DNA from: Polytrichum commune
Taxonomy: Eukaryota > Streptophyta > Polytrichopsida > Polytrichales > Polytrichaceae
Length of the DNA stretch: 64,000 nucleotides
Assembly (NCBI GenBank): GCA_950295325.1
Contig: OX485807.1
Location: 23,409,666 to 23,473,665 of the forward strand
Direction of reading: 5' to 3'
In this document: one piece after another, positions 9,263-61,232 of the stretch
Layout: each line of letters opens with the position of its first letter
Numbering within the stretch: the stretch's first letter is position 1
Program-made: the position numbers and the translations under genes
Notes under the pieces: generated by a model
What the model saw: the letters and a program-made list of their open reading frames with translations, nothing else
The model's database searches: none
Told to the model about the DNA's origin: nothing

Positions 9263-9499
9263 ATAGTTTTTTTCTTAAAAAATACATACAATTGCAATTT
9301 CAATTGATCTTCAGAAATGGGTACAACTTTCATATCTAAAGTATAAAAATATCATCCATATGAAAGATAAAAATCAATTAAAAGAAATATATACATATGA
9401 AAGAAATTACATATGCAAACTAAAATAATATACAAAAATGTTTATGAAAGTGAGAATATACATAAGGAAAAACCACATATGCAAAAAAAATTGAAATTT

Positions 9500-10120
9500 C
9501 AATAAGGGTGGCCGTTAACGGCCACCCTTGTTGGAGGACAAAATATTAAGGAAATGATTGTATACATGAAGAAAGAAACACATATAGAAAATAAAATGAA
9601 ATTTCAATAAGGTTGGCCGTTAACGGTCATCCTTGTTGAAGGAAAAAAAATAAAAATGGGTGTATACATGAAGAAAGAAACACATATAGAATAGAATCTG
9701 AAATTTCAATAAGGATGGCCGTTAACGGCCACCCTTGTTGGAGGAAAAAAAATGAAGGAAATGAGCGTATACATAAAGAAAGAAACATATATAAAATTGA
9801 ATATGAAATTTCAATAAGGGTGAAAATGAGTGTATACATGAAAAAAAAAACACATATACCAATAAATCTGAGATGCAACCAAGGGTGGCCGTTAACGACC
9901 ACATTTTTAGATGGAACAGACATAAGAAATATATGTATATATGTGATTTTATTTCAAAGAAATTATATTGTTAAATGAAGACTGAAACCCAAGAAATGAC
10001 ACCCTAAACTAGAAAATAGAAGTTAACATCATACAAAGGGTGGCCGTCTGACGGCCACCCTAAACTAGAATACAGAAGTTGGCATCATAAAAAGGATGGC
10101 CGTTAACGGCTACCCATTTG
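9500..10120. repeat. Array of palindromes with core GGCCGTTAACGGCC
   Basis: At least six copies of a GC-rich palindrome lie in an AT-rich matrix, near 9504-9529, 9611-9632, 9711-9735, 9881-9905, 10036-10060 and 10093-10115. A seventh unit near 9815 has lost the palindrome. The first copy is a perfect 26-bp palindrome. The first three sit in a tandem unit of about 103 bp that also carries the flanks TGTATACATGAAGAAAGAAA and GAAATTTCAAT. Each could extrude a hairpin. Short overlapping open frames here are by-products of the repeat. Confidence 0.8.
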
Positions 10121-15640: not shown

Positions 15641-16268
15641 TTACATAGTAAGCGTCTGTGACTGCTAATAGTAAATAAATACAAAAATGACATATATTTC
15701 TTACTTCATGTCGTGATATCTACTTTACTAAGTTGGGTAATGTTTACATCAACCAGTGGTTTTTGGCCTACGTTGTGAGGTCATGTGGTTGTCGTATGTC
15801 TTTATTATATATTACTAGTAGTGAAGTGTATATGACTTTGTCAAGTGCCATGTTTTAAATACAAATGAGTGTGTTTACTATAACGAGTAACATAGGGTTC
15901 ACTTAACATAGTCATATGTTTATGGCATGCACGTTTTATTTCCACTGGTCATACTAGGCAATAACTCTACGTAGTAAGAGTGAATAAATACGAAAATGAC
16001 ATATATTTTTTACTTAATGTCGTGAAATTTACTTTACTATGTAAAGTAATGTTGACATCAAACATTGGTATTTTGCCTACGTTGTGAGGTCATGTGGTCG
16101 TCGTATATCTTTAGGGTTTATTATTAGTAGTGAAGTTCATATAACTTTTCTAAGTGCCATGTTTTGCATGCAAATGACTGCGTTTACTATAACGAGTAAC
16201 ATGAGGATGACTCAACATAGTCATATGTTTATGGCATGTACAATATATTTCCACTTATCATACTAGGA
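15641..16268. repeat. Tandem duplication of about 310 bp in the CACTA-like block
   Basis: 15641-15958 and 15966-16268 are diverged copies sharing CCTACGTTGTGAGGTCATGT, ACTATAACGAGTAACAT and CATAGTCATATGTTTATGGC. A third partial copy is at about 17361-17515. Such arrays fit the subterminal repeat regions that bind CACTA transposition proteins. Confidence 0.7.
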
Positions 16269-26260: not shown

Positions 26261-26630
26261 GAACAAACGCCTCTACTATAGTTGAGATTATTAGAGCCCA
26301 TGGATGTGAGCACTTTGTTTGCTTGTAAGTATATGATCTACATTAGAATTAGACGTTAATTAATGGTTAATATGGTGCTCACTATGGGGCCGCACACCCC
26401 TGTTTTGATACCTTGACTCGAGGTTTATCCGTCAATTGTTTAATATTTGTTAGCTGCACACAACTAGGTGTTTGATACACTTAATACGAACGCATACACT
26501 AAACATCAATAACCCTATGAAAGTAAGTAACATTAAACGTAAACTCAAATACTAAATATCAACTATGATATTATGTGGAAGTTAAATGTTTGAATTTAGT
26601 GTTAGTAAGGATATGAAAACAAAAAATAAC

Positions 26631-27412
26631 AATGGTAAGAGAAGAATTCCAGCATATCTCCTAGCATATTTTCTAACACTAATTATCAAGGAATTGAAAA
26701 TTAATGTCGAGCAGGGTAGGGTGGTAACAACATTAAATATAATCAAACACTAAATATCTTATTTAGTGTAGTGACCAGGTGGTGTGGGCTGGCAAGATGT
26801 TATGAGAGCCTGGTATTCTAAGCTAGCTCAATGGATGTCATGTTCTAGCATGTCCTCGTAGACAGTGGCACACAACTATCAATACCACACACAATGGTAA
26901 GAGAAGAATTCCAACATATCTTCTAGCATATTTTCTAACACTAATTGTCAAGGAATTGAAAATTAACGTTGAGCAGGGTAGGGTGGTAACAACATTAAAT
27001 ATAATCAAACACTAAATATCCTATTTAGTGTAGTGACGAGGTGGTGTGGGATGGCAAGATGTTATGAGAGCCTGGTACTCTAAGCTAGCTCAATGGATGT
27101 CATGTTCTAGCATGTCCTCGTAGACAGTGGCACACAACTATCAATACCACACACAATGGTAAGAGAAGAATTCCAACATATCTTCTAGCATATTTTCTAA
27201 CACTAATTGTCAAGGAATTGAAAATTAACGTTGAGCAGGTAGGGTGGTAACAACATTAAATATAATCAAACACTAAATATCCTATTTAGTGTAGTGACGA
27301 GGTGGTGTGGGATGGCAAGATGTTATGAGAGCCCCGTATTCCGAGCCAGCTCATTGGATGTCATATTCTAGCATGTCCTCGTAGACAGGGGCACACAACT
27401 GCCAATACCACA
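26631..27412. repeat. 262-bp tandem triplication
   Basis: Three direct copies start at 26631, 26893 and 27155, each beginning AATGGTAAGAGAAGAATTCC. Copies 2 and 3 are more alike than copy 1, and copy 3 has a one-base deletion. No open frame runs through it, so it is a non-coding amplification. Confidence 0.9.
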
Positions 27413-46583: not shown

Positions 46584-48503
46584 TGTGAGGCCAAATCCAC
46601 CACCCTTAAGCGTCCTAGTCCGGGTGATGGCTTTGCGAATCACATTCACCTAATTCAATCTTGAACCATGTGCAAAGTAATTTTCATGTCCAAAAGAACA
46701 CATATTGTTTCCGCTCATTGAGCTTTATTAATGTTGGCCTCTTGGCTTGTGCTAGAGTTGGCTTTCTCAAGAGTCCAACCCGCGGCTTTAGCCGCACATG
46801 CCCTTACGGACATTCCCCTCACTCTTTTGAGCTTCACCTCATTTATCTTGCCATTGCAAGAGTCCTTCACATTCTCCATTAATAATGCAAGTAAGTTGTT
46901 TTGAACGATAGGTGCAAGTGTTGAAAAACACTTACTCTATAGTCAATGTCACATTCAATCACATGAAACTTCCACACGCCTTGCCTATCCTATTGAGCTT
47001 AACACTTGTCCAATGACTATTTTAGTCTATGATTGGTCTATCCCCCTATTAGATAGTTTAGTGGCACCCTCCACACAATCTTTAGCCTTAGCTTGCTAAA
47101 CCTAATAACTATCTAATTAGCCATGGGTACAACTCCCGCCTAGTTACCGGCGGCCCCTTGATAGCCTCGGATGCCACAGCTTAATACTCCTTAAGGCCAG
47201 CAGCCTTGGCTCCACAGCTTAATACTACCTAAGGGCCAACAGTCTCGGCTGCCACAACTTAATACTCCTGAAGGCCAGTAGTCGGCTGCCACAGCTTAAT
47301 ACTACCTAAGGGCCAGCAGTCGGCTGCCACAACTTAATATTACCTGAGGCCAGCAGTTCGGCTGCCACAACTTAATATTCCTAAGGCCAGCAGCCTTGGC
47401 TCCACAGCTTAATACTGCCTAAGGCCAGCAGTTCGGCTCCACAGCTTAATACTACATAAGGGCCAGCAGTCGGCTGCCACAGCTTAATACTACCTAAGGA
47501 CAGCAGCCTTGGCTCCACAGCTTGATACTACCTAAGGGCCAGCAGTCGGCTGCCACAACTTAATACTACCTAAGGACAGCAGCCTTGGCTCCACAGCTTG
47601 ATACTACCTAAGGGCCAGCAGTCGGCTGCCACAGCTTAATACTACCTGAGGCCAGCAGCCTTGGCTCCACAGCTTAATACTACCTAAGTCAACAGTTCGG
47701 CTGCCACAGCTTAATACTACTTAAAGGCCAGCAACCTCGGTTTCACAGCTTAATACTACCTACAGGCCAGCAGTTCGGCTGCCACAACTTAATACTTCCC
47801 CCCAAGGTCCTAGTGACTATATGTTAAGTCTACCTGCTATCTACCCTTAATGCACCCCTCCTAATTCACTAATCAAAGGTTTTTTTTTTTGTTCTTCTTT
47901 TCTTTCACTAACTACCACCTAATCACTACATGCAAACTTAAGCTCTAGAGCTCCCTCACTTGGGAGGCTTTGAGAGAGAGAGCTTAACTAATTAACTTCA
48001 CTGAAACTAGTGTCACACACACGTGGCTCAAGCTCTTAGGAGCTTGCTCCCTTGAGAGCGCTTGATGGAGAGAGAGGCAAATGAGAGAAAAAACACCTTA
48101 AGTAGCAAAGAGGGAGAGAGGGAGAGAGGGAGAGAGAGGTGAGGATAGGGTGAGAGGATTAGCACCTCCAATCACAATCCTTTAACCTTCTCCTCCAAAG
48201 TAGGGACTAATCCCCATCCACCAAGCTTCCTTCTTCCTAAACTAACAAAGTGGATCCAAAAGTGGGCATTTAACCCGCGGATCTCACCTTGCCTCACCTT
48301 ACCCCTTACTCACATAATCAAGGCATCCTCTTATTGAAATCAAACCTTGAAATAACTACACTACACATTCTAATGCCTAAACTTAAATCCACACCACACT
48401 TCACTCTTTTTGTGTTTTGTGAATAATCATAACACATCAAAGTCAAACTAAAATTGGTTCCAAAGAGTTAATCACCACATGTGGGCACCATTTTGGGCTC
48501 ACA
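46584..48503. mobile_element. Solo LTR, copy 2 (1920 bp)
   Basis: Same family as 12573-14051: it begins TGTGAGGCC and ends GGGCTCACA. It is flanked by the perfect 5-bp target duplication TTGGG (46579-46583 and 48504-48508). The host LINE reads DFETKFLLLAQ on one side and NIILNLYLDN on the other, as the intact family does (DFETEVLWLIQRYITIL in copy 1). It is about 440 bp longer than copy 1, mostly from its minisatellite. Confidence 0.88.
47160..47810. repeat. Minisatellite inside solo LTR copy 2
   Basis: About 16 imperfect units of roughly 38-41 bp built on GGCTGCCACAGCTTAATACT and ACCTAAGGGCCAGCAG, alternating with variants reading CAGCCTTGGCTCC. The unit differs from that in the sister LTR although the flanks match. 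Confidence 0.88.
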
Positions 48504-50100: not shown

Positions 50101-50648
50101 TGTCGTGTAAATAGCGATCGTGTGTCACTGCAGCTCGAGTACCAACCACCACTAACAAACAACACTAAAACATAACAAAATCACACATAAATCACACACC
50201 TCGACAGAGAAGGAAGAAAATAGAACACTCATAATAGCTCTAAATCTCTCTTCAAATGCACACAAATAGTCAAGATATCTCTTACTCCACCAAGGGAAAA
50301 TCCAAGAGTGTGAGTAGGGGAAGAAGAACTCAAGATTTATTGCAAAATCATGCAATCTACACCTCACACAAGCTCTTTCCACACACTAACTCACAAGACT
50401 TGACTTGGCAAGAATGCCAAGCCAAGGAGGAGGCTCCTCACTTAGGAGCCTTCCTCTCCACATTTAGATTCATCCATCCAAATCTAGATGGATGAAACCC
50501 AACGGATAAGGTGCGGCCGTCGACGCCGCATACCATGACAACTGTAGTGTAAATAGCGATCGTGTGTCACTGCAACTCGAGTACCAACCACCACTAACAA
50601 ACAACACCAAAACATAGCAAAATCACACATAAACAACACACCTCGACA
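50101..50648 (-). repeat. LTR-like end of the gypsy element with 106-bp terminal direct repeats
   Basis: 50101-50206 and 50543-50648 are 106-bp direct repeats with about six differences, each with TG...CA ends. The segment between them contains, on the minus strand, GCAATAAATCTTGAGTTC, typical of a poly(A)/R region in an LTR. A purine tract (minus strand GAGGGGGGGCA) abuts 50648, as expected for the polypurine tract beside a 3' LTR. Either the whole 548 bp is the LTR or the 106-bp units are very short LTRs of a miniature element. No matching 5' LTR was found near 55-58 kb. Confidence 0.6.
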
Positions 50649-50977
50649 TGCCCCCCCTCAGCTGACTATGGAGTCCCGCCAAGCAGCTAGGACCAATGCC
50701 AATCTAAAGGGCATGGATAATAAAAGATTGCTCCGCAACTAACTAGTGTGGTAAATGCTATTCCAAGGAACTGTAGGCTGGGTGCAAGGTGAGCCCCATC
50801 CTTAATCGCCTTTGATGTTTGGCCATCAGATCCCAAAGAATTAAATCCACTGCCTCATGTTGATTGCGTCTTTAAGCCATAACTCCTCATTTTCCATTTG
50901 GACAGGCACAAGATGATGAAAACCACACAGGGTCATTGAGTACGATTGGTGGAAGCACCAAGTACCAAAGATCCTCG

Positions 50978-51112
50978 ACAGCGAGGACAACTCCACTGTC
51001 CAGATGGTAGAGAAGTCAAGGGTGGCCTCAAGCATGCCATGTGCCAACCGCGTTGATACTAATCACACAAGAACATAGTAGCTGCTCCTTTCTTCTCTCC
51101 ACACACAAAACA
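50978..51112 (-). pseudogene. PHD finger at the end of the integrase
   Basis: Reads CFVCGEKKG ... FLCD, then a stop (51059-51061), then [10 protein letters not shown] and GQWSCPRC. The spacing fits the C4HC3 PHD pattern: CxxC, CxxC, HxxC, CxxC. The fourth Cys is now Tyr, next to the stop, so the finger is decayed. PHD fingers read histone H3 tails. In chromoviruses a chromodomain sits at this position and steers integration, so a PHD finger here may have done the same; that role is inference. Confidence 0.75.
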
Positions 51113-52342
51113 TGGAAGACCCTCTGGCACGACGGCCAGTTCAGGATGAACTGTACCTTCAATAGGTAGATGACATGGGGCACAGTTTTTGGAATGCTCG
51201 CGACATTCCCTGCCATCCTTGCCTTCCAACAACAACAAACCACTCGGTAACACCTCCTTCACCCGAAGAATAGTGCGCCCCGCCCTGACATCCAATGTCG
51301 TAGGCGCCTCACGTTGGAGATAGATATAATCCCCCTGCCGGAATCTCCGCAACTGAGGTCGGTAAGCACCACTGCGAATGCGTGCATAACGCAATATGTC
51401 ACGATGCTGAGCAATGGACAAATTCTCCATGGCCATAGGTATGGCCCTCTGGAAGAATTGAGCCCGCTCCTGCAAACACTCTGCCCAAAGGTCTAGGTCA
51501 TCCAAGTTCACAACATGAGCTAGTTTTTCCCGAATAGAACTCGGGAGTATAGGCTCACGTCCATACAACAACTGATACGGGCTGTAGGACGCCAAAGAGG
51601 CCTGCCTACTAAATCGATAGCCCATAGCAATCCAAGGCAACATAAGGTCCCAATCCCGGTGGCTTCCCCGAAGTAATCCATACTTCCTCAAGCCACGTTT
51701 GGTTGTCTGAACAACCCGTTCAGCCAAGCCATCTGCCTCCGGATGATCCCGAGAGGTGGTACGGTGATCTATGAGCGCCTTAGTGCACAACTCTTCAAAA
51801 GCACCAAGGAACTCCCTCCCTTGGTCCGTCAACCCCTCAGTCGGTGCTCCAAAACGTGCCAACACACGATCCAAAAAGGCGGCCGCGGCCAACTCTGCAG
51901 AGTTTTGGGGCAGAGCAACAAGCTCAATTCACTTGCTAAAATGCTCCACCATCACCAAAACGTACTTTGCTCCACGTGCTGTAACCACCAACGGCCCTAC
52001 AAAGTCCAGCGACCAGCGGTAGCCCAATCCCATGATAGATAAGGGCTGTAACTGAGGTGATAAGGTGTTAAAGCTAGACCTGACCCGGTCACAAACTTCA
52101 CACCTCCCGACATACGCAGCCACCTGCTGATACATGCCAATCCACCAATATTGGCCACGCAACATCGAATGTGTCCTGCGTATGCCAAAATGGCCAAGTT
52201 CCTCGTGCACTTGTCGCACCAAGGAGGCCCTCTGATCCGGCCTAGGAACAATACGCCTTGTCCCATCCGGCCACAATCGAAATAACAAACCGTTCTCCCA
52301 ACGGAACCTTGTTATTCGATGTCCAATCCTATCCCTTTCCAT
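51059..52342 (-). pseudogene. Integrase of the gypsy element
   Basis: The N-terminal HHCC zinc region (HEELGHFGIRRTH and CEVCDRV) is at about 52210-52080. The catalytic core follows: WSLDFVGP (first Asp), TDQGREF (second Asp) and DGLAERVVQ (Glu). A conserved tail contains YGREPILP and GDYIYLQRE. One in-frame stop (51929-51931) interrupts it where related integrases have Trp. It would join cDNA to the host genome. Confidence 0.85.
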
Positions 52343-54066
52343 TGCTTAGGTAGACGAAGGAAAGGTCCCATGCTGAAGCTTTTGCAATACGGGAAGGTCC
52401 TCCCATATATCCGCAATAGCTTGCGGTTGATCAGTCTCATCATCTGAGCCCTGTATTGGAACCTCAACAGTTGCACCAGAAAATAGAGTGAGGTAAGCAA
52501 CCGCGTGCCAACCTGGAACCGCCTCCCGATCACAATCTCCATGTCACCTGGCCCCGGTCAAGTCCTCATCCGAAGGACTTGGATTGCGTGAGAGTCCATC
52601 TGCATCAAAGTTGGTAATGCCAGCACGGTGCACCACCTCAAAGTCATATTCCTGAAGCAACAAATCCATCTGGCGAGCTTGCCAGTAAGCTTATCCGACT
52701 CCATGAGCCACCATAACGGCTAATGGTCAGTCACCAAGGTAAAGCGCTGACCATAAAGATATGGCCAGAAATGGGCAATAGCCCACACTGCCGCCAATGC
52801 TTCCCCCTCATAAAATGAATAATTGGCCTCCGCCGTGTTGTTGCTTCGCGACGCGTAAGCAACAACATACTTCCGGCCAAAGTCATCCTTCTGAGTGAGA
52901 ACTGCTCCCAAACCCAATAAGCTCCAGTCCGTATGCAACTGGAAAGATTTGGAGACATCTGGACGTCGAAGCACTAGAGCCGAACCTAGTTTCTGCTTCA
53001 ATGTCTCAAATGCCTGTTGCTGCTCACGACCCCAAGTCCACGGTTGGTCCTTGCTCGTGAGAATGGTGAGAGGCTTGACGATCAAGCTAAAGTCCTTGAC
53101 GAATCGCCGATAGTAATTCGCCAAGCCCAAGAAAGCATGAAGTCTCGGCACATCAACCGGTGCCGGAATCTTCTGCAAGGCGTCCACCTTAGCTTGTTGT
53201 ACCCCAAGACCTTCTGGAACAATCATATGCCCTAGATATGCCAGCCGGTCATGGAAAAACTTGCACTTGCCGTGATGCAAGCGCAATCCCCACCGCTGCA
53301 ACCGTTCAAAAACGGCTTACAGATGCCTTACATGCTCCTGTGGTGTTGTGTTGAAGATGATCACATCGTCTATGTAACACCGAGCAAAGGGCAAGCCAGA
53401 GAGAACCTGATCCATCACCCGCTGAAACTCAGCGGGTGCATTCTTTAGGCCAAATGGAAGAAACTTCCAATGATAAAGTTGATCTTTCCCATCTTGATCA
53501 ACTTCCCAAAATGCGGTCTTCACCCGATCTCCCGTAAGTAATGGAAGTTGGTGATATCCGGATCTCAAGTCCAAGGTGCTAAAGACCCGAGAAAATCCGA
53601 TGGCATTGAACAATTCCTCCGGGATCGGCATGGGATACCGATCCGACTTGGTCTTCCGATTAACTGGACGGTAATCCCCACACATCCGCTTCTCCGTCCA
53701 ATTGCCAAAGATATCCTTCTTCGATGGCATAACCGTAGTACAAACATACTTCATGTTGGAAAGTTCGATTAGCCCTACTGCCAAGAGCTCTCGGCAACGA
53801 GCTTGAACACCAATCCGCTCGGAAACACTGAGCCTGTAAGGTCTCCGAAAAATGGGATGGTCGTCCTCCAACTAAATGTGGATGGGTTTTCCTTTATAAC
53901 CTTCAAGATCCTGAAGGCTAAAAGCAAAACATCTACAGTACGAGCGAATAAATGCTCGTACCTTTCGTGCCTCAGTACCAGTGAGACGAGGGTCTAATTC
54001 AAGTGGCCAATCATCAAACTCTGTAGTCTCCCTCTCCACCAAAAGAGAACCACCTGATACTGGCAC
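52343..54066 (-). pseudogene. Reverse transcriptase and RNase H of the gypsy element
   Basis: The spacer from 54066 leads into RT: DYRPVNRKT, STLDLRSGYHQLP, FLPFGLKNAPAEFQRVMD and the catalytic YIDDVII near 53380. RNase H follows: QLHTDWSLLGLGAVL, EGEALAAVWAI and LVTDH. Stops lie at 53872-53874, 53317-53319 and 52720-52722. Near 52675 the frame shifts; in the next frame VVHRAGITNFDADGLSR continues the domain. It copies element RNA into DNA. Confidence 0.88.
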
Positions 54067-54078
54067 AGACTCTAATTA

Positions 54079-55192
54079 CTAATGAGAGGAGGGGACATCA
54101 ACCATGCCCCCAGTCTCGGTGCTAGCACTAGAGTCTGACATTTCTTCATCACCACCAATATGTGATGATGAAGCCACCACCGAAGGCGAAGAAACCGAAG
54201 CAGTGTAAAAATGTTGAGCTCGAAGCTCCTCCATCACATGCTGCTCGAATTGAAAAATTCGTTCGGCTTCTCCAACCATGGCGTGAATTCCCTCCTCCAT
54301 GGGTGTGGACTGCTGTGCCCCCTGACCAGAGTCCTCTGCCCCCAGAGACAACCATTGGTCACCACGATGCCTTTGCAATGAAAGGCATAAAGCAACAATC
54401 CACACCATGGTATGAAGATCCATAGCTTGGCCCAACATGAAGCGTCGTTGGCCCTCAAAAAGGCCGGGAGCTGCGGTGGTGCCAGTGCGGAATCCCATGG
54501 CACGCTCCCGTTCGTCTGCCAATGGTTCGGTGTGGGTTTTGGTGTGAACATCCCACACCATACCCGGCCCCCTATCGTGGAAATCGGATGACTGTGGAAA
54601 CGTCATAAATGTGGGAAAGGCCCGCCGTGGTGCCCCCATTTTATTGACCAATGCCAACGGGGGTAAATCATCTTGAACAACCGGCAAAGAAGTCCGGTTT
54701 GGATCCAAGATGTCATCCACCTTTTGATCAAAAGGTGGAGGCACTGCAGAAAATGTTGTAGCTAAAGTAGATGACGGTGCGAGGTTGGTCCAAATTCGCC
54801 GAGGCCGGTGGGCATAAGAACAAATGCTCGCGGCATCCACAAAAATGGGATCTCCAAGGTGTTGACGAACATAATAATTGCCTTCCAACACCTTGTCCCG
54901 AGAGTCTCCCAACAAAGGTACATTCTCGAAAATATAGCCTGGAGGGAAAGGTTGGTGGGAATACCACCACTGCATGAGGCGGATGAGGTCCCAGAATAGA
55001 ATAGACTTGGGATCCTCTAGTCCTCCGCCTGCTCCAGCACGTGAATGGCCCTGGCATGGCCATCTGTGGTACTTTTGGGCCACCCCCTTTCGAGGGAGCC
55101 TAAAAGTATCACACAAGCCCTTCGGTGAAGGTGGCCTGCATTTGCAGGCGCCCAAGCCGAACCCGGATGATAGGTGTATAACGTGAGTAGTT
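54079..55192 (-). pseudogene. Cytosine-C5 DNA methyltransferase domain of the gypsy element
   Basis: Numbering from 55155: WPCQGHSRAG at 32-41 is motif IV with the catalytic Cys. FENV at 76-79 is motif VI. YAHRPRRIWTNL from 114 is motif VIII, in the AHRxRxxWxN style of DNMT3/DRM enzymes. ERERAMGFRTG and FMLGQAMDLHTMVWI near 240 fit motifs IX-X. Just upstream VIHLSSGFGLGAC may be a decayed motif I, but the distance to motif IV is too short, so part of the N-terminus is lost. The frame is open for 358 codons, then TAG TAA, then RT in the same frame. The intact ancestor could have methylated DNA. Confidence 0.82.
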
Positions 55193-58100
55193 AGATTTTT
55201 AAGGGAGATTAAATATGCGTCGTAGTACCTCCGGAGGTTAGGCCTTAGTTTTTTACTAGTGTGGCTTTAAACTCCACTAACCAATTTCATATCTAGTTCT
55301 AACCTTAACCTACAACCTATTCTACGCGCAGACGCACTAGCCTTGAAACCAAGGCAATCCTAATTTGTGAATTGGGATGGTTCTGATACACCCAACCGGG
55401 TGTGACTCATACCACCCTAACTCAACGAACGGAATAACGACAATTTGATGGACCATTCAATTCTTCCTATTTCTTTATTTAGTTCTATTTAGTTTTCTAA
55501 GCGGGGGAACTTGGCCTAAGTCCCACCCTTCACACAAATTCCTTCTTAATTACTTACTTTTGTTTGCACGTCCTAACTCACTACATTAACATATTAGGCA
55601 TCACCCCTTACCTCGGGTCTCTTGCCAACAAGGGTTTACGATTTATTTTGTATGTTTTGATTGTTAAATGTGTTTACACTGGATAGACCACGAAATGCAA
55701 CTCAATGGGACCAGGGTGACGGGCGACCTGTAGGTTCAACCTGTTGCGCAATCTTCATAAATTGGGGCCATTACTCCCAATCTATGGGGCCAACAACATA
55801 ATAGTGGATTCGCGGGTCATTAACCCCACCTTTCCACCAACAACATTCAGAGTCGTCGTGTCGGTGATTAATCCGACTTACTACACACGAAACTTGCTAA
55901 TAAATGAAGCTACTACCACAAAACATACCAAGGGCCCCGAAAACAATGGAATTGGGTACTCCCTTGGCGGTCAAGTGGTCAAGCCACTTGACCTTACGAG
56001 ATAGGTGAGTGGGTTTAGAAATGCGTACCTTAGCCGTGCTCCCTCCAATCCTAAATGGAAGGCTTAAGGTTAGTTAATTTACCTCAATTTTCCTCGGTTG
56101 ATTTGGGCTTGATGTAGGCCGAGCCGCTACCTCCTTCCTTGCTCCACTTTCCGAGCGTCGACCTTGCCTCCTTCTTTGTAACTAGTTTGGTAGTAAGCGT
56201 ACCTTAGTTAACAATTAAAATATAAAGTGTTATTCTGCCCTGTAATTTAATCCTAAGCATAATATTTATACTTAGTGCACCAAATTATCTTTCCAATGAT
56301 CTAAAAATCACTCTAATCGGATAAGAAATGCAAAAGTTATGAGGGTTGGAAGTGTGAGGTCGATTCAACCGACCCTTCCAACCCACCTATCTACCTTCAA
56401 ACTTCAAAAATTCATAGCACATTCCTTACTACTTGGATCTAGGCTTTCCTTATACCATTGGAAAGCTATGAACAAGCTCTAACTAGAAAAATTATGACAT
56501 CAGCAGGTTAAGCTAATAGAAATTCAGCGGACTCCTTGTAACACAGCAGTCAATCAAGAAGGCTTAAACTATGTATCTCGCCTTCAACAATTCATATCTA
56601 ATTCAAATCTTAGTCAAATCAAACGTTCTATATGACCCTGGAGAGATATTAAAAAGATGTATTTGATAAAAATATGTGATTAGAAAGGTAAGCCGAAGTG
56701 AACCCAGCAGGTCCTCTGTAATGCAGCAGTCAACCAAAAGTTCTCAAACTATGTGTCCCATCTTGCACAATTCATATCTAATTCAAATCATGCTCAAATC
56801 AAATGTTCTAAGCCATTTTGGAAAGCTACACAAAAGTTCTACTTGGGAAAAATATAATTTCTTGGAATTAAAATTCCTATTGGGCTCGCAGGTCTGATCC
56901 AGCAGCCGCTACCCACAAGACCACCCAGTTTTTCTACTCCATCTTTGAAAATCCATAACTAATTGTCATCTCAACCAAATCACAAATGGGAAACGGCTAT
57001 GGATAGCTATATGAAATCTCTCTAAGAGAAAAATGATAAGTATCTTGTTCTAGCTTTTGAACTAAGCCTTCAGGGCATTGGCAGATGAGGTCTATAATGC
57101 CTCTACTCAAAACTCTACCATCCAACCTACCTCTACAAAAGAAGGAATAATTTTGTTGGTGTGTTAATAAACACACAACCTAACTAGGAGAGAGAGAGTA
57201 GAGGAGGTTCTCAAGCCTTTCTTCTAGACCATTGAGAATACATGCTAAAGGATTTTTTCCTAACTACATTGAAGCAGGGCTTCGCCCAAAAACTAGAGAA
57301 AGAGAGAGAGCTACAAGGTGGAAGGAGGGGTTTTTAAACCCTCTCACAAAAGGGTTGGACCCCTCCTCCACCGGATCCATTTTTCAAACCCTTTCCCGAA
57401 ATTTTGGCTCGGGGGTTTTCCCGGTTGAGGTTGCCACCCTCTCGCCGAGGTGGCTCCGACAAAAAACCTTTAGAAATCTTTCTAATTTTTCCGCCATCGA
57501 GTTGGCAAGGGGGCAAGTGGGCAAGTATCCCCCTTGCTCTCTTTCTTTTTTGTCTTCAAAATTCTTCACGCCGATTTTATCTTCTTACGTAAAACACCTC
57601 CAATAGTCTTGTGTGCCTCACACTAACTAATAAACTAACACTTGCTTAGCTAGCATCTACTAACATTTGCTTAATAACTAGCATCTACTAATATTTGCTT
57701 AGCTAGTTGTTTTTACTAGCTAGCACATTTTTTCTACTTTGCTATCTTCTAGCACTACTTAGTTTCATTTTGACCTTCCTTCTTCTAGGCTAAATGCTAA
57801 ATGAACTAATTTTCCCTAAATTCCCTATCAATTCTAACTTTTAATCCTAACATTCTAACTAAAAGTGATCCCGCAGAGTGGTGGACCACTCAAAGGGTTC
57901 ACACCATTGGAGAAGAATATGATGAAACGAGATGAAGGAATGGGTACAAGCAATCTCGTATTATATACACCCAATGTAGGCACCAATGCCTGTATATATG
58001 ATATCTTGTAGATCAATTAATAGTCAATATTTATTTAGGTAAATGCTGGACAACCTGTAACATGTAAGAATAGAATGGACTTGAATAATTGTGAATCATT

Positions 58101-59592: not shown

Positions 59593-59850
59593 CGTTGCTA
59601 TGAACGCTTGGTCGCCGCTTGCCGTCTGTGTGGCAGGCTCGATGTCTGTCTCTTTCAAGTTAGGTTGATAGAGTATTTCTCTCTGTAAAGAAATAGAGTA
59701 GGGTCTTGGCTTCAACCTGCCAATTTTGAGTCTTGTCTGAAACGCGGATTGGAGACGCAGAGGAGGTTGGGCCGGCAGAGACGGTTGTGGGGATTCTCTA
59801 CAATCTAAACTATGTTGGAACATGTGAGTTTGGGGGGGGACCATCAATTG

Positions 59851-60574
59851 TTTGACTTTCAGTTTGATATCAGTCTTGTTTCAGGTTGTATGATTGATAG
59901 GCTTCTGATTTAGGGGGGGGGGTTAGGGTGAGTGCTTTTGGTTTTATTTCTAAGTTCTTTCATCAAGCTTGAAGCCTTCATTATGTACATTCGGGCCCGA
60001 GCATCATTTTTTTGCCTTTCAGTTTGATATAGGTCTTGTTTCAGGTTGTAGGATTGATAGGCTTCTGATTAAGGGGGGGGGGTTAGGGTGAGTGCTTTTG
60101 GTTTTATTTCTAAGTTCTTTCATCAAGCTTGAAGCCTTCATTATGTACAGTAGGGCCCGAGCATCATTTTTTTGCCTTTCAGTTTCATATCAGTCTTGTT
60201 TCAGGTTGTAGGATTGATAGGTTTCTGATTTAGGGGGGGGGGTTAGGGTGAGTGCTTTTGGTTTTATTTCTAAGTTCTTTCATCAAGCTTGAAGCCTTCA
60301 TTATGTACATTCGGGCCCGAGCATCATTTTTTTGCCTTTCAGTTTGATATCAGTTTTGTTTCAGGTTGTAGGATTGATAGGTTTCTGATTAGGGGGATTT
60401 AAAGTGAGTGTTTTTGGTTTTATTTCTAAGTTCTTTTATCAAGCTTGAAGCCTTCATTATGTACATTAGGGCCCGAGCATCATTTTTTTGCCTTTCAGTT
60501 TGATATCAGTCTTGTTTCAGGTTGTAGGATTGAAAGGTTTCTGATTTAGGGGGGGGGTTAGGGTGAGTGCTTTT
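59851..60574. repeat. 160-bp satellite array with G9-G10 runs
   Basis: About 4.6 tandem units start at 59851, 60011, 60171, 60331 and 60487. Each has TTTGCCTTTCAGTTTGATAT, GGATTGATAGG, a long G run followed by TTAGGGTGAG, and CGGGCCCGAGCATC. It lies in a putative intron of the ParB-like gene. Confidence 0.92.
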
Positions 60575-61232
60575 GGCATCACTTTGATAGGCCATATCTC
60601 TTAGTCATTTCATTCCCTTGCTTTGAGACTTTGTGACCTTTTAGGTGCTCATGTTAGCTTTCTAGAGATATATGGATCTCTCCATTTGAAGTTTTCAAGT
60701 AGAAGTTATGGACATTTGAACGCAGGGTGGTCATGCTGGAATGGTATGCCGTTGACGGCATCACTTTGATAGACCACATCTTCTAGTCATTTCTTTCCCT
60801 TGCTCTGAGACTTTGTGACCTTCTAGTTGCTGATGTTAGCTTTCTAGGGATGTATGTATCTCCACATTTGAAGTTTTCAAGTAGAAGTTATGGACATTTG
60901 AACGCATGGTGGTCATGTTGGAATGGTATGCCGTTGACAACATCACTTTGATAGGCCACATCTCCTAGTCATTTCTTTCCCTTGCTTTGAGACTTTGTGA
61001 CCTTTTAGTTGCTGATGTTAGTTTTCTAGGGATGTATGGATCTCCTCATTTGAAGTTTTCAAGTAGAAGTTATGGACATTTGAACGCAGGGTGATCATGC
61101 TGGAATGGTATGCCGTTGACGGCATCACTTTGATAGGCCACATCTCCTAGTCATTTCTTTCCCTTGCTTTGAGACTTTGTGACCTTTTAGTTGCTGATGT
61201 ATGGATCTCCTCATTTGAAGTTTTCATTTTGA
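60575..61232. repeat. 182-bp satellite array
   Basis: About 3.6 units start at 60575, 60757, 60939 and 61121, each with GCATCACTTTGATAG, GACTTTGTGACCTT and GGAATGGTATGCCGTTGAC. It abuts the 160-bp array without a spacer. Confidence 0.92.

Follow-up and report, generated by a model that had tools for sequence, protein, structure and literature searches.

The DNA stretch analysed here, hereafter the window, comprises 64,000 nucleotides of contig OX485807.1 from the bryophyte Polytrichum commune and harbours, on its minus strand, the remnant of a retrotransposon in which a C5 cytosine DNA methyltransferase (DNMT) domain precedes a Gypsy-type reverse transcriptase (RT). Motifs IV, VI, VIII and X of C5 methyltransferases, quoted in the original prediction, are present as described, and the profile search that it proposed for the translated region returned a PF00145 match (E 4e-5, 23.6 bits against a cut-off of 22) in the minus-strand frame 54079-55266, followed downstream on the same strand by Pfam matches to RVT_1, RNase H, the H2C2 zinc finger of integrases and, weakly, rve. 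Over positions 50101-55064 the window is 94.2% identical to one longer copy of the same family (4,966 aligned bases). This homology begins abruptly at 55064, inside the DNMT and directly before motif IV, so that the first ~67 residues of the 395-residue frame are not element sequence; upstream of 55064 the window shows no match to the family. The original prediction has therefore to be corrected as to the strand, and as to a copy that lacks gag, the protease (PR) and motif I. The DNMT and RT frames are indeed in phase, the former just upstream of the latter, but they are separated by two stops, a TAG (54079-54081) followed by a TAA, and further stops occur within pol. What the window contains is a fossil, truncated at its 5' end, interrupted by several in-frame stops and encoding no working enzyme; the claim that a Gypsy element encodes its own C5 DNMT holds for the family and fails for this copy, which is devoid of the S-adenosylmethionine-binding motif I.

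All the parts of the fossil lie on the minus strand. The DNMT3-type remnant with motifs IV-X occupies 54390 (approximate) to 55064 and is followed, beyond motif X, by a C-terminal extension of the gag-PR-DNMT polyprotein (54082-54389), delimited by alignment with the end of the first open reading frame (ORF1) of another copy. Next come the TAG separating DNMT from pol and the hexamer TAATTA (54073-54078), which reads CARYYA in 39 other copies. The stop-broken RT remnant (53220-53871) is recognised by PF00078 in two pieces, the second below the cut-off, and the RNase H remnant (52720-53034) by PF17919/PF17917. The integrase remnant (51059-52345) was delimited by DNA alignment to another copy, with PF17921 above the cut-off and a weak rve match (0.13) in its first piece; its piece 51059-51928 has no Pfam match. 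A stop-interrupted PHD-finger remnant at the integrase C-terminus (50975-51112) was identified by reading the sequence, PF00628 being matched in two other copies. The polypurine tract GAGGGGGGGCA (50649-50659) adjoins the 106-bp repeat B1 (50543-50648), a 2-bp spacer and repeat A2 follow (50207-50542), and repeat B2 (50101-50206) forms the 3' end of the element (...CACGACA); both B repeats were delimited by a repeat search, and all three repeats by comparison with the longer copy.

The family in the genome

When the 408-Mb genome was scanned with PF00145, in line with the genome-wide search for sister copies called for by the original prediction, 123 of 353 candidates were scored as matches, 18 of the 123 lying in open frames of 1,356-1,386 residues. 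One match corresponds to the host DRM gene (C2:4703600-4703606; DRM2 E 6e-52), which leaves 122 DNMT places; a piece of this gene, with a rearranged methyltransferase, occurs at L092:1265-1855 (-). A DNMT3A query listed 150 places, the DRM gene being common to both scans. No host DNMT3 was recognised among these 150 places, few of which were read; scoring covered a part of the 299 candidates, and short exons could escape. A scan of IMG/VR returned 28 loci with partial matches of 30-60% identity. As to the genome itself, rbcL compared with solved structures points to a green plant, and accD to a bryophyte: the latter is 93% identical to a cluster labelled Sphagn..., 90-92% to the liverworts Pallavicinia and Aneura, 89% to Anthoceros and 87-89% to five further labelled mosses, against 85-86% for early ferns and Huperzia. 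Its seven large contigs suggest n=7.

Eight full copies, picked for their long ORF1 frames, reveal the complete layout. In all eight, ORF1 comprises a CCHC knuckle, an aspartic protease motif (DSGA), the DNMT and a terminal TAG; in the two copies scanned with Pfam, the matches for knuckle and protease are weak and below the cut-offs. ORF2, in the same frame, encodes RT, RNase H, H2C2 finger, DDE core and a PHD finger, the last matched at E 2e-8 and 2e-10 in the two scanned copies; five of the eight copies have both frames open. Two copies were scanned for further domains: no match was found to a chromodomain, to a tyrosine recombinase in either frame, or to the ADD and PWWP domains that regulate animal DNMT3s in ORF1. 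Protist and algal DNMT3s are likewise described without companion domains (PMC12344493). Another Gypsy element of the same genome (L093:1888-7941, minus strand) consists of a single 2018-residue frame with gag, RT, RNase H and integrase, and shows neither a DNMT nor a PHD match.

The stop codon between the methyltransferase and pol

The junction between DNMT and pol was read at 40 places other than the DRM gene, namely 36 loci and four further copies. The TAG junction was matched in 36/36 loci, and the six bases that follow it are CAATTA, CAGTTA or CAATCA in 35 of them; the remaining locus, L090, reads CAGTTG in a four-mismatch match which may be spurious, since the search tolerated four mismatches and returned two unrelated matches of that kind. 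With the four further copies and the window copy included, UAG-CAR-YYA occurs in 39 of 41. Between subfamilies saturated at silent sites, the variable letters of this context vary just as the consensus allows. UAG-CAR-YYA is the type I readthrough consensus of tobamoviruses (PMC3542737), which share the same stop and the same six following bases; in the Polytrichum family the signal, predicted from sequence, is placed between gag-PR-DNMT and RT. The stop thus appears to be leaky, in which case ORF1, and hence the DNMT, would be made in large excess over pol and together with the capsid protein.

The methyltransferase domain

The element DNMT is an unrearranged C5 methyltransferase domain closest to the DNMT3 fold, with 25% identity to DNMT3B by structure, and its motif I precedes motifs IV-X, unlike the rearranged order of DRM enzymes. 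The catalytic cysteine, ENV and R.R are invariant across 12 aligned proteins; within this genome, PCQ and ENV occur together in 36/36 loci, R.R in 33 and the core of motif X in 31. Purifying selection acts on the DNMT between subfamilies. In seven relatives (P0028, P0029, P0034, P0036, P0038, P0039 and P0040, one of which is labelled Closterium), motif IV has GWECQ in place of GWPCQ, a glutamate replacing the usual proline before the catalytic cysteine. Between the copies c8 (L040/L041) and c4 (L034/L052/L053), the synonymous divergence (dS) amounts to 0.256 for the DNMT and to 0.068 for RT, a contrast which suggests mosaic copies arising from template switching or recombination.

Ends, repeats and integration

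All eight full copies are flanked by a perfect 4-bp target duplication surrounding 5'-TGTCACG...CACGACA-3'. Depending on the copy, the repeats follow the order A1-internal-B1-GC-A2-B2 (6/8) or the element reduces to A-internal-B, without any terminal repeat (2/8). In the two copies viewed, the polypurine tract adjoins B1 and an AATAAA lies within A; the reverse-transcribed long terminal repeat (LTR) should therefore be B-GC-A, with the integrated ends inside the LTR. The corresponding junction string, GACA-GC-TGTC, occurs 151 times in the genome, against 4 for the reversed control. On contigs C1-C4, and using the first 100 of the 151 junctions, 38 of the 81 DNMT copies from the PF00145 scan and 16 of the 39 further copies from the DNMT3A query (two of these 39 lie past the last listed junction) have the string 4.3-4.9 kb downstream of them, the control giving 0. 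The simplest reading is that the integrase acts on the GACA-GC-TGTC junction in a circle, a one-LTR circle yielding A-internal-B and a two-LTR circle the long form.

Repeats within a copy differ at 0 of ~538 bp in three copies, at 1/666 in one and at 4/439 in another; in a sixth copy, where B alone was compared, they differ at 2/107. These near-identical repeats indicate that the family was recently active.

Relatives and phylogeny

Searching with the DNMT region retrieved 73 proteins, including gene models from Marchantia polymorpha (up to 50% identity), Closterium (41%) and Sphagnum fallax (35%). Marchantia polymorpha models such as Mp_4g09160, Mp_8g17980 and others resemble ORF1 of this kind of DNMT-bearing Gypsy element; several of the element-related models bear the label of hypothetical protein, and the name of one entry starts with 'DNA (cytosine-5'. 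The best 120 of 545 matches to ORF2 include KFL_009030040 from Klebsormidium nitens (48% over 89%) and relatives from Calypogeia, Riccia, Marchantia and Closterium; another entry, labelled Chrzof1/Cz02g39130, we take to be the chlorophyte Chromochloris zofingiensis.

According to the position of the DNMT, the listed matches with a DNMT plus RT or RNase H fall into two classes. In class I, the DNMT precedes RT (19 relatives, five with a PHD finger, many rows being cut short); in class II, it is inserted between RNase H and integrase (33 relatives, 31 with a PHD finger), five other matches being incomplete. Identity to the DNMT of the window family is 34-43% for the class II DNMTs listed.

A tree of RT, RNase H and integrase with 52 rows separates 37 rows with a DNMT, the two rows of the window family counted among them, from 15 without one (no BLAST match at 1e-3) by a 100/100 branch, and class II forms a single clade (100/100); this tree leaves out the rows with ORF2 only and the long-branched DNMT rows P0058, P0141 and P0073. 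In a first RT tree, all 38 DNMT rows fell in one clade of 83 rows, none of which is labelled DNMT-less, 43 of them consisting of ORF2 only. An unrooted DNMT tree of 63 rows, built without the long rows P0120, P0087, P0068 and P0073, 14 near-duplicate or cut rows and the rows of undecidable class, opposes class II (35) to class I (28) at 100/100. Class I did not come out as a single clade in an earlier DNMT tree, which had one long human segment as its root; K. nitens and some long rows fell outside. Marchantia and Chromochloris contribute rows to the DNMT trees alone; Closterium has a place in the DNMT tree and, through rows with ORF2 only, in the first RT tree, and Sphagnum, Calypogeia and Riccia are represented by search matches outside the trees. 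The simplest history, as deduced from trees without host DNMT3 genes, would be one ancient acquisition of the DNMT in front of RT and its later move in class II.

Comparison with known retroelements

The closest known system is KnitGypsy-Dnmt3 from K. nitens (de Mendoza et al. 2018, PMC5890265), which likewise combines a Gypsy pol, a DNMT3-type domain under purifying selection and DIRS-like repeats; its order A-coding-B-A-B, given in a figure legend, is that of 6/8 copies here. Its DNMT belongs to the Pol frame, whereas in Polytrichum gag-PR-DNMT form ORF1 and RT onward lies behind the UAG-CARYYA stop. KFL_009030040, taken as a copy of KnitGypsy-Dnmt3, has the order PR-DNMT-RT-RNase H-integrase and belongs to the same RT clade as the Polytrichum family. 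What the present family adds to that element is its occurrence in a bryophyte, at 122 DNMT places, together with target duplications, a polypurine tract, a defined junction and a PHD finger. SymbioDIRS-Dnmt3 from dinoflagellates shares a DNMT3-type domain in a retroelement polyprotein and A...B-A-B repeats, but possesses a tyrosine recombinase and a DIRS instead of a Gypsy pol, and its DNMT is active on CG in yeast (PMC5890265). The kinship with the elements of de Mendoza and colleagues, left open in the original prediction, thus extends to their K. nitens Gypsy and not to their dinoflagellate elements.

The repeat order A1...B1-A2-B2 is also that of the tyrosine-recombinase elements PAT, Ngaro and VIPER (PMC6681497), from which the Polytrichum family differs by its DDE integrase and 4-bp target duplications. 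With Ty3/Gypsy elements it shares the order PR-RT-RNase H-integrase, the DDE integrase and a target duplication within the 4-6 bp range; the LTRs are not located at both integrated ends, so that the designation Gypsy-type rests on pol. Chromoviruses are Gypsy elements with a chromodomain on their integrase; a chromatin-reader module at the integrase C-terminus is thus common to both, the reader being here a PHD finger. A 2025 paper assigns the streptophyte and dinoflagellate elements to Copia and DIRS (PMC12344493); the domain order found here is that of Gypsy.

As far as the open literature was searched, the bryophyte family, a presumably leaky stop placing the DNMT on the Gag side, the target duplications, the permuted junction and the grouping of DNMT-bearing, PHD-equipped Gypsy elements in one RT clade are new. 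The name KnitGypsy and similar terms retrieved one paper only among open PMC papers; reports elsewhere may exist.

Proposed mechanism and alternative explanations

The reading that we favour, with a probability of roughly one half, is that the window contains the fossil of a DNMT3-type Gypsy family which would produce its DNMT at Gag level, methylate its DNA before integration and choose its targets through a PHD finger. As predicted from the layout, most ribosomes would stop at the UAG and deliver the DNMT at the level of Gag, the few that read through providing pol. The particle would then carry the DNMT and methylate the double-stranded DNA of the element prior to integration, the substrate being probably a circular intermediate with the GACA-GC-TGTC junction, which the integrase would open for insertion. 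The PHD finger might steer insertion towards chromatin with unmodified H3K4: its 60 best sequence matches include CHD4, PHF12, lid, PHF21A and ATXR5, those of the CHD4/PHF12 kind being presumed readers of unmodified H3K4. The new copy would arrive already methylated and resemble host DNA.

Several observations weigh against this reading. The same 60 PHD matches also include other types of readers (DPF2, KAT6A, KMT2C/D, UHRF1). Nearly half of the listed junctions (46/100) lie near no listed DNMT copy, and the repeat-less form (2/8) could result from plain recombination between B1 and B2. A pattern search of two copies found no TATA box, and no primer-binding site was recognised by eye. In three pairs of close copies, with few changes, the ratio of nonsynonymous to synonymous divergence of the DNMT is 0.35-0.72. 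Five copies have an observed-to-expected CpG ratio of 0.65-0.71, and the window copy one of 0.68, compared with 0.48 and 0.57 for two stretches elsewhere in the window; these copies are not CpG-depleted, and lasting CG methylation has thus left no strong mark. Finally, no methylation resulted from the K. nitens domain in yeast, but human DNMT3B failed there too (PMC5890265).

Alternatively, the DNMT could act on host chromatin and integrated copies, the element lowering its own expression or seeding the silencing of its neighbourhood and being tolerated by the host in return. A benefit of slower retrotransposition was raised by de Mendoza et al. (PMC5890265), nothing found here would bar a Gag-level DNMT from host DNA, and C/T differences between three pairs of copies are commonest per site at CG (0.0405, against 0.0288 at CHG and 0.0188 at CHH). 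They are nevertheless raised in all contexts, as host methylation alone could do, and a family with 122 DNMT places and several very young copies is not strongly restrained, so that we consider this explanation unlikely. The failure of the K. nitens domain in yeast, along with that of DNMT3B (PMC5890265), and the ECQ motif of seven relatives would also fit a domain retained for a non-catalytic or RNA role, such as DNA binding, base flipping, capsid assembly or RNA methylation; the invariance of the catalytic residues in the 12 aligned proteins, and of PCQ and ENV in every genome locus, makes this quite unlikely.

With respect to the origin of the domain, Gypsy elements of K. nitens, bryophytes and chlorophytes might each have gained a DNMT3 of their own in separate events. 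For K. nitens, an acquisition within its lineage has been described (PMC5890265), the DNMT position differs between the two classes, and K. nitens and some long rows fall outside the main class I set in the human-rooted tree. Against such separate events, which seem quite unlikely, stand the 100/100 branch between rows with and without a DNMT, a further 100/100 branch that sets class II apart in the unrooted DNMT tree as in the RT tree, the occurrence of PHD fingers in both classes, and the fact that class II DNMTs are closer to the window family (34-43%) than is DNMT3B (25% by structure). A chance neighbourhood of DNMT fragment and RT, by a nested host gene or a bacterial insert, could not be dismissed from the truncated window copy alone; it is refuted by the DNMT-TAG-pol junction found, weakly in L090, in 36/36 loci, a result opposite to the absence from all related copies that the original prediction had named as its refutation, and the sole host DNMT found, located on another chromosome, is of the rearranged DRM type, which leaves the probability of a chance neighbourhood close to nil.

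Some DIRS elements carry Dam-like enzymes. A wider idea, which we regard as a long shot, is that retroelements acquire and keep DNMTs where their DNA passes through a circular intermediate, split repeats being found in both SymbioDIRS-Dnmt3 and the DNMT/PHD Gypsy clade. This clade might then represent a write-and-read module, ancient in green plants, in which a Gag-level methylase would dress the circle as host DNA before insertion, the integrase would act on its GACA-GC-TGTC junction and the PHD finger would read unmodified H3K4.

Other features of the window

Ten other open reading frames of the window (117-288 residues) have no Pfam match up to E 0.01, and the window looks gene-poor and repeat-rich. 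Tandem arrays occur at 47166-47796 (unit 38/76 bp), 59842-60576 (160 bp), 60575-61200 (182 bp), 26629-27412 (262 bp), 15666-16267 (309 bp) and 9457-9819 (105 bp).

Biological significance

Hosts silence transposons by cytosine methylation, and an amplifying lineage that keeps a DNMT under selection contradicts this usual picture. The sole green-plant case found in the open literature becomes one tip of a large clade, and gene models resembling ORF1, such as those of Marchantia, could inflate the counts of DNMT genes in plants. Permuted repeats combined with target duplications suggest that a DDE integrase operates on a junction within the LTR, a point relevant to the kinship between LTR and DIRS replication, and the presumably leaky stop predicts an enzyme present as a particle component at structural level. 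In this respect, the recently active copies of a bryophyte render the role of a transposon-borne DNMT testable in culturable plants.
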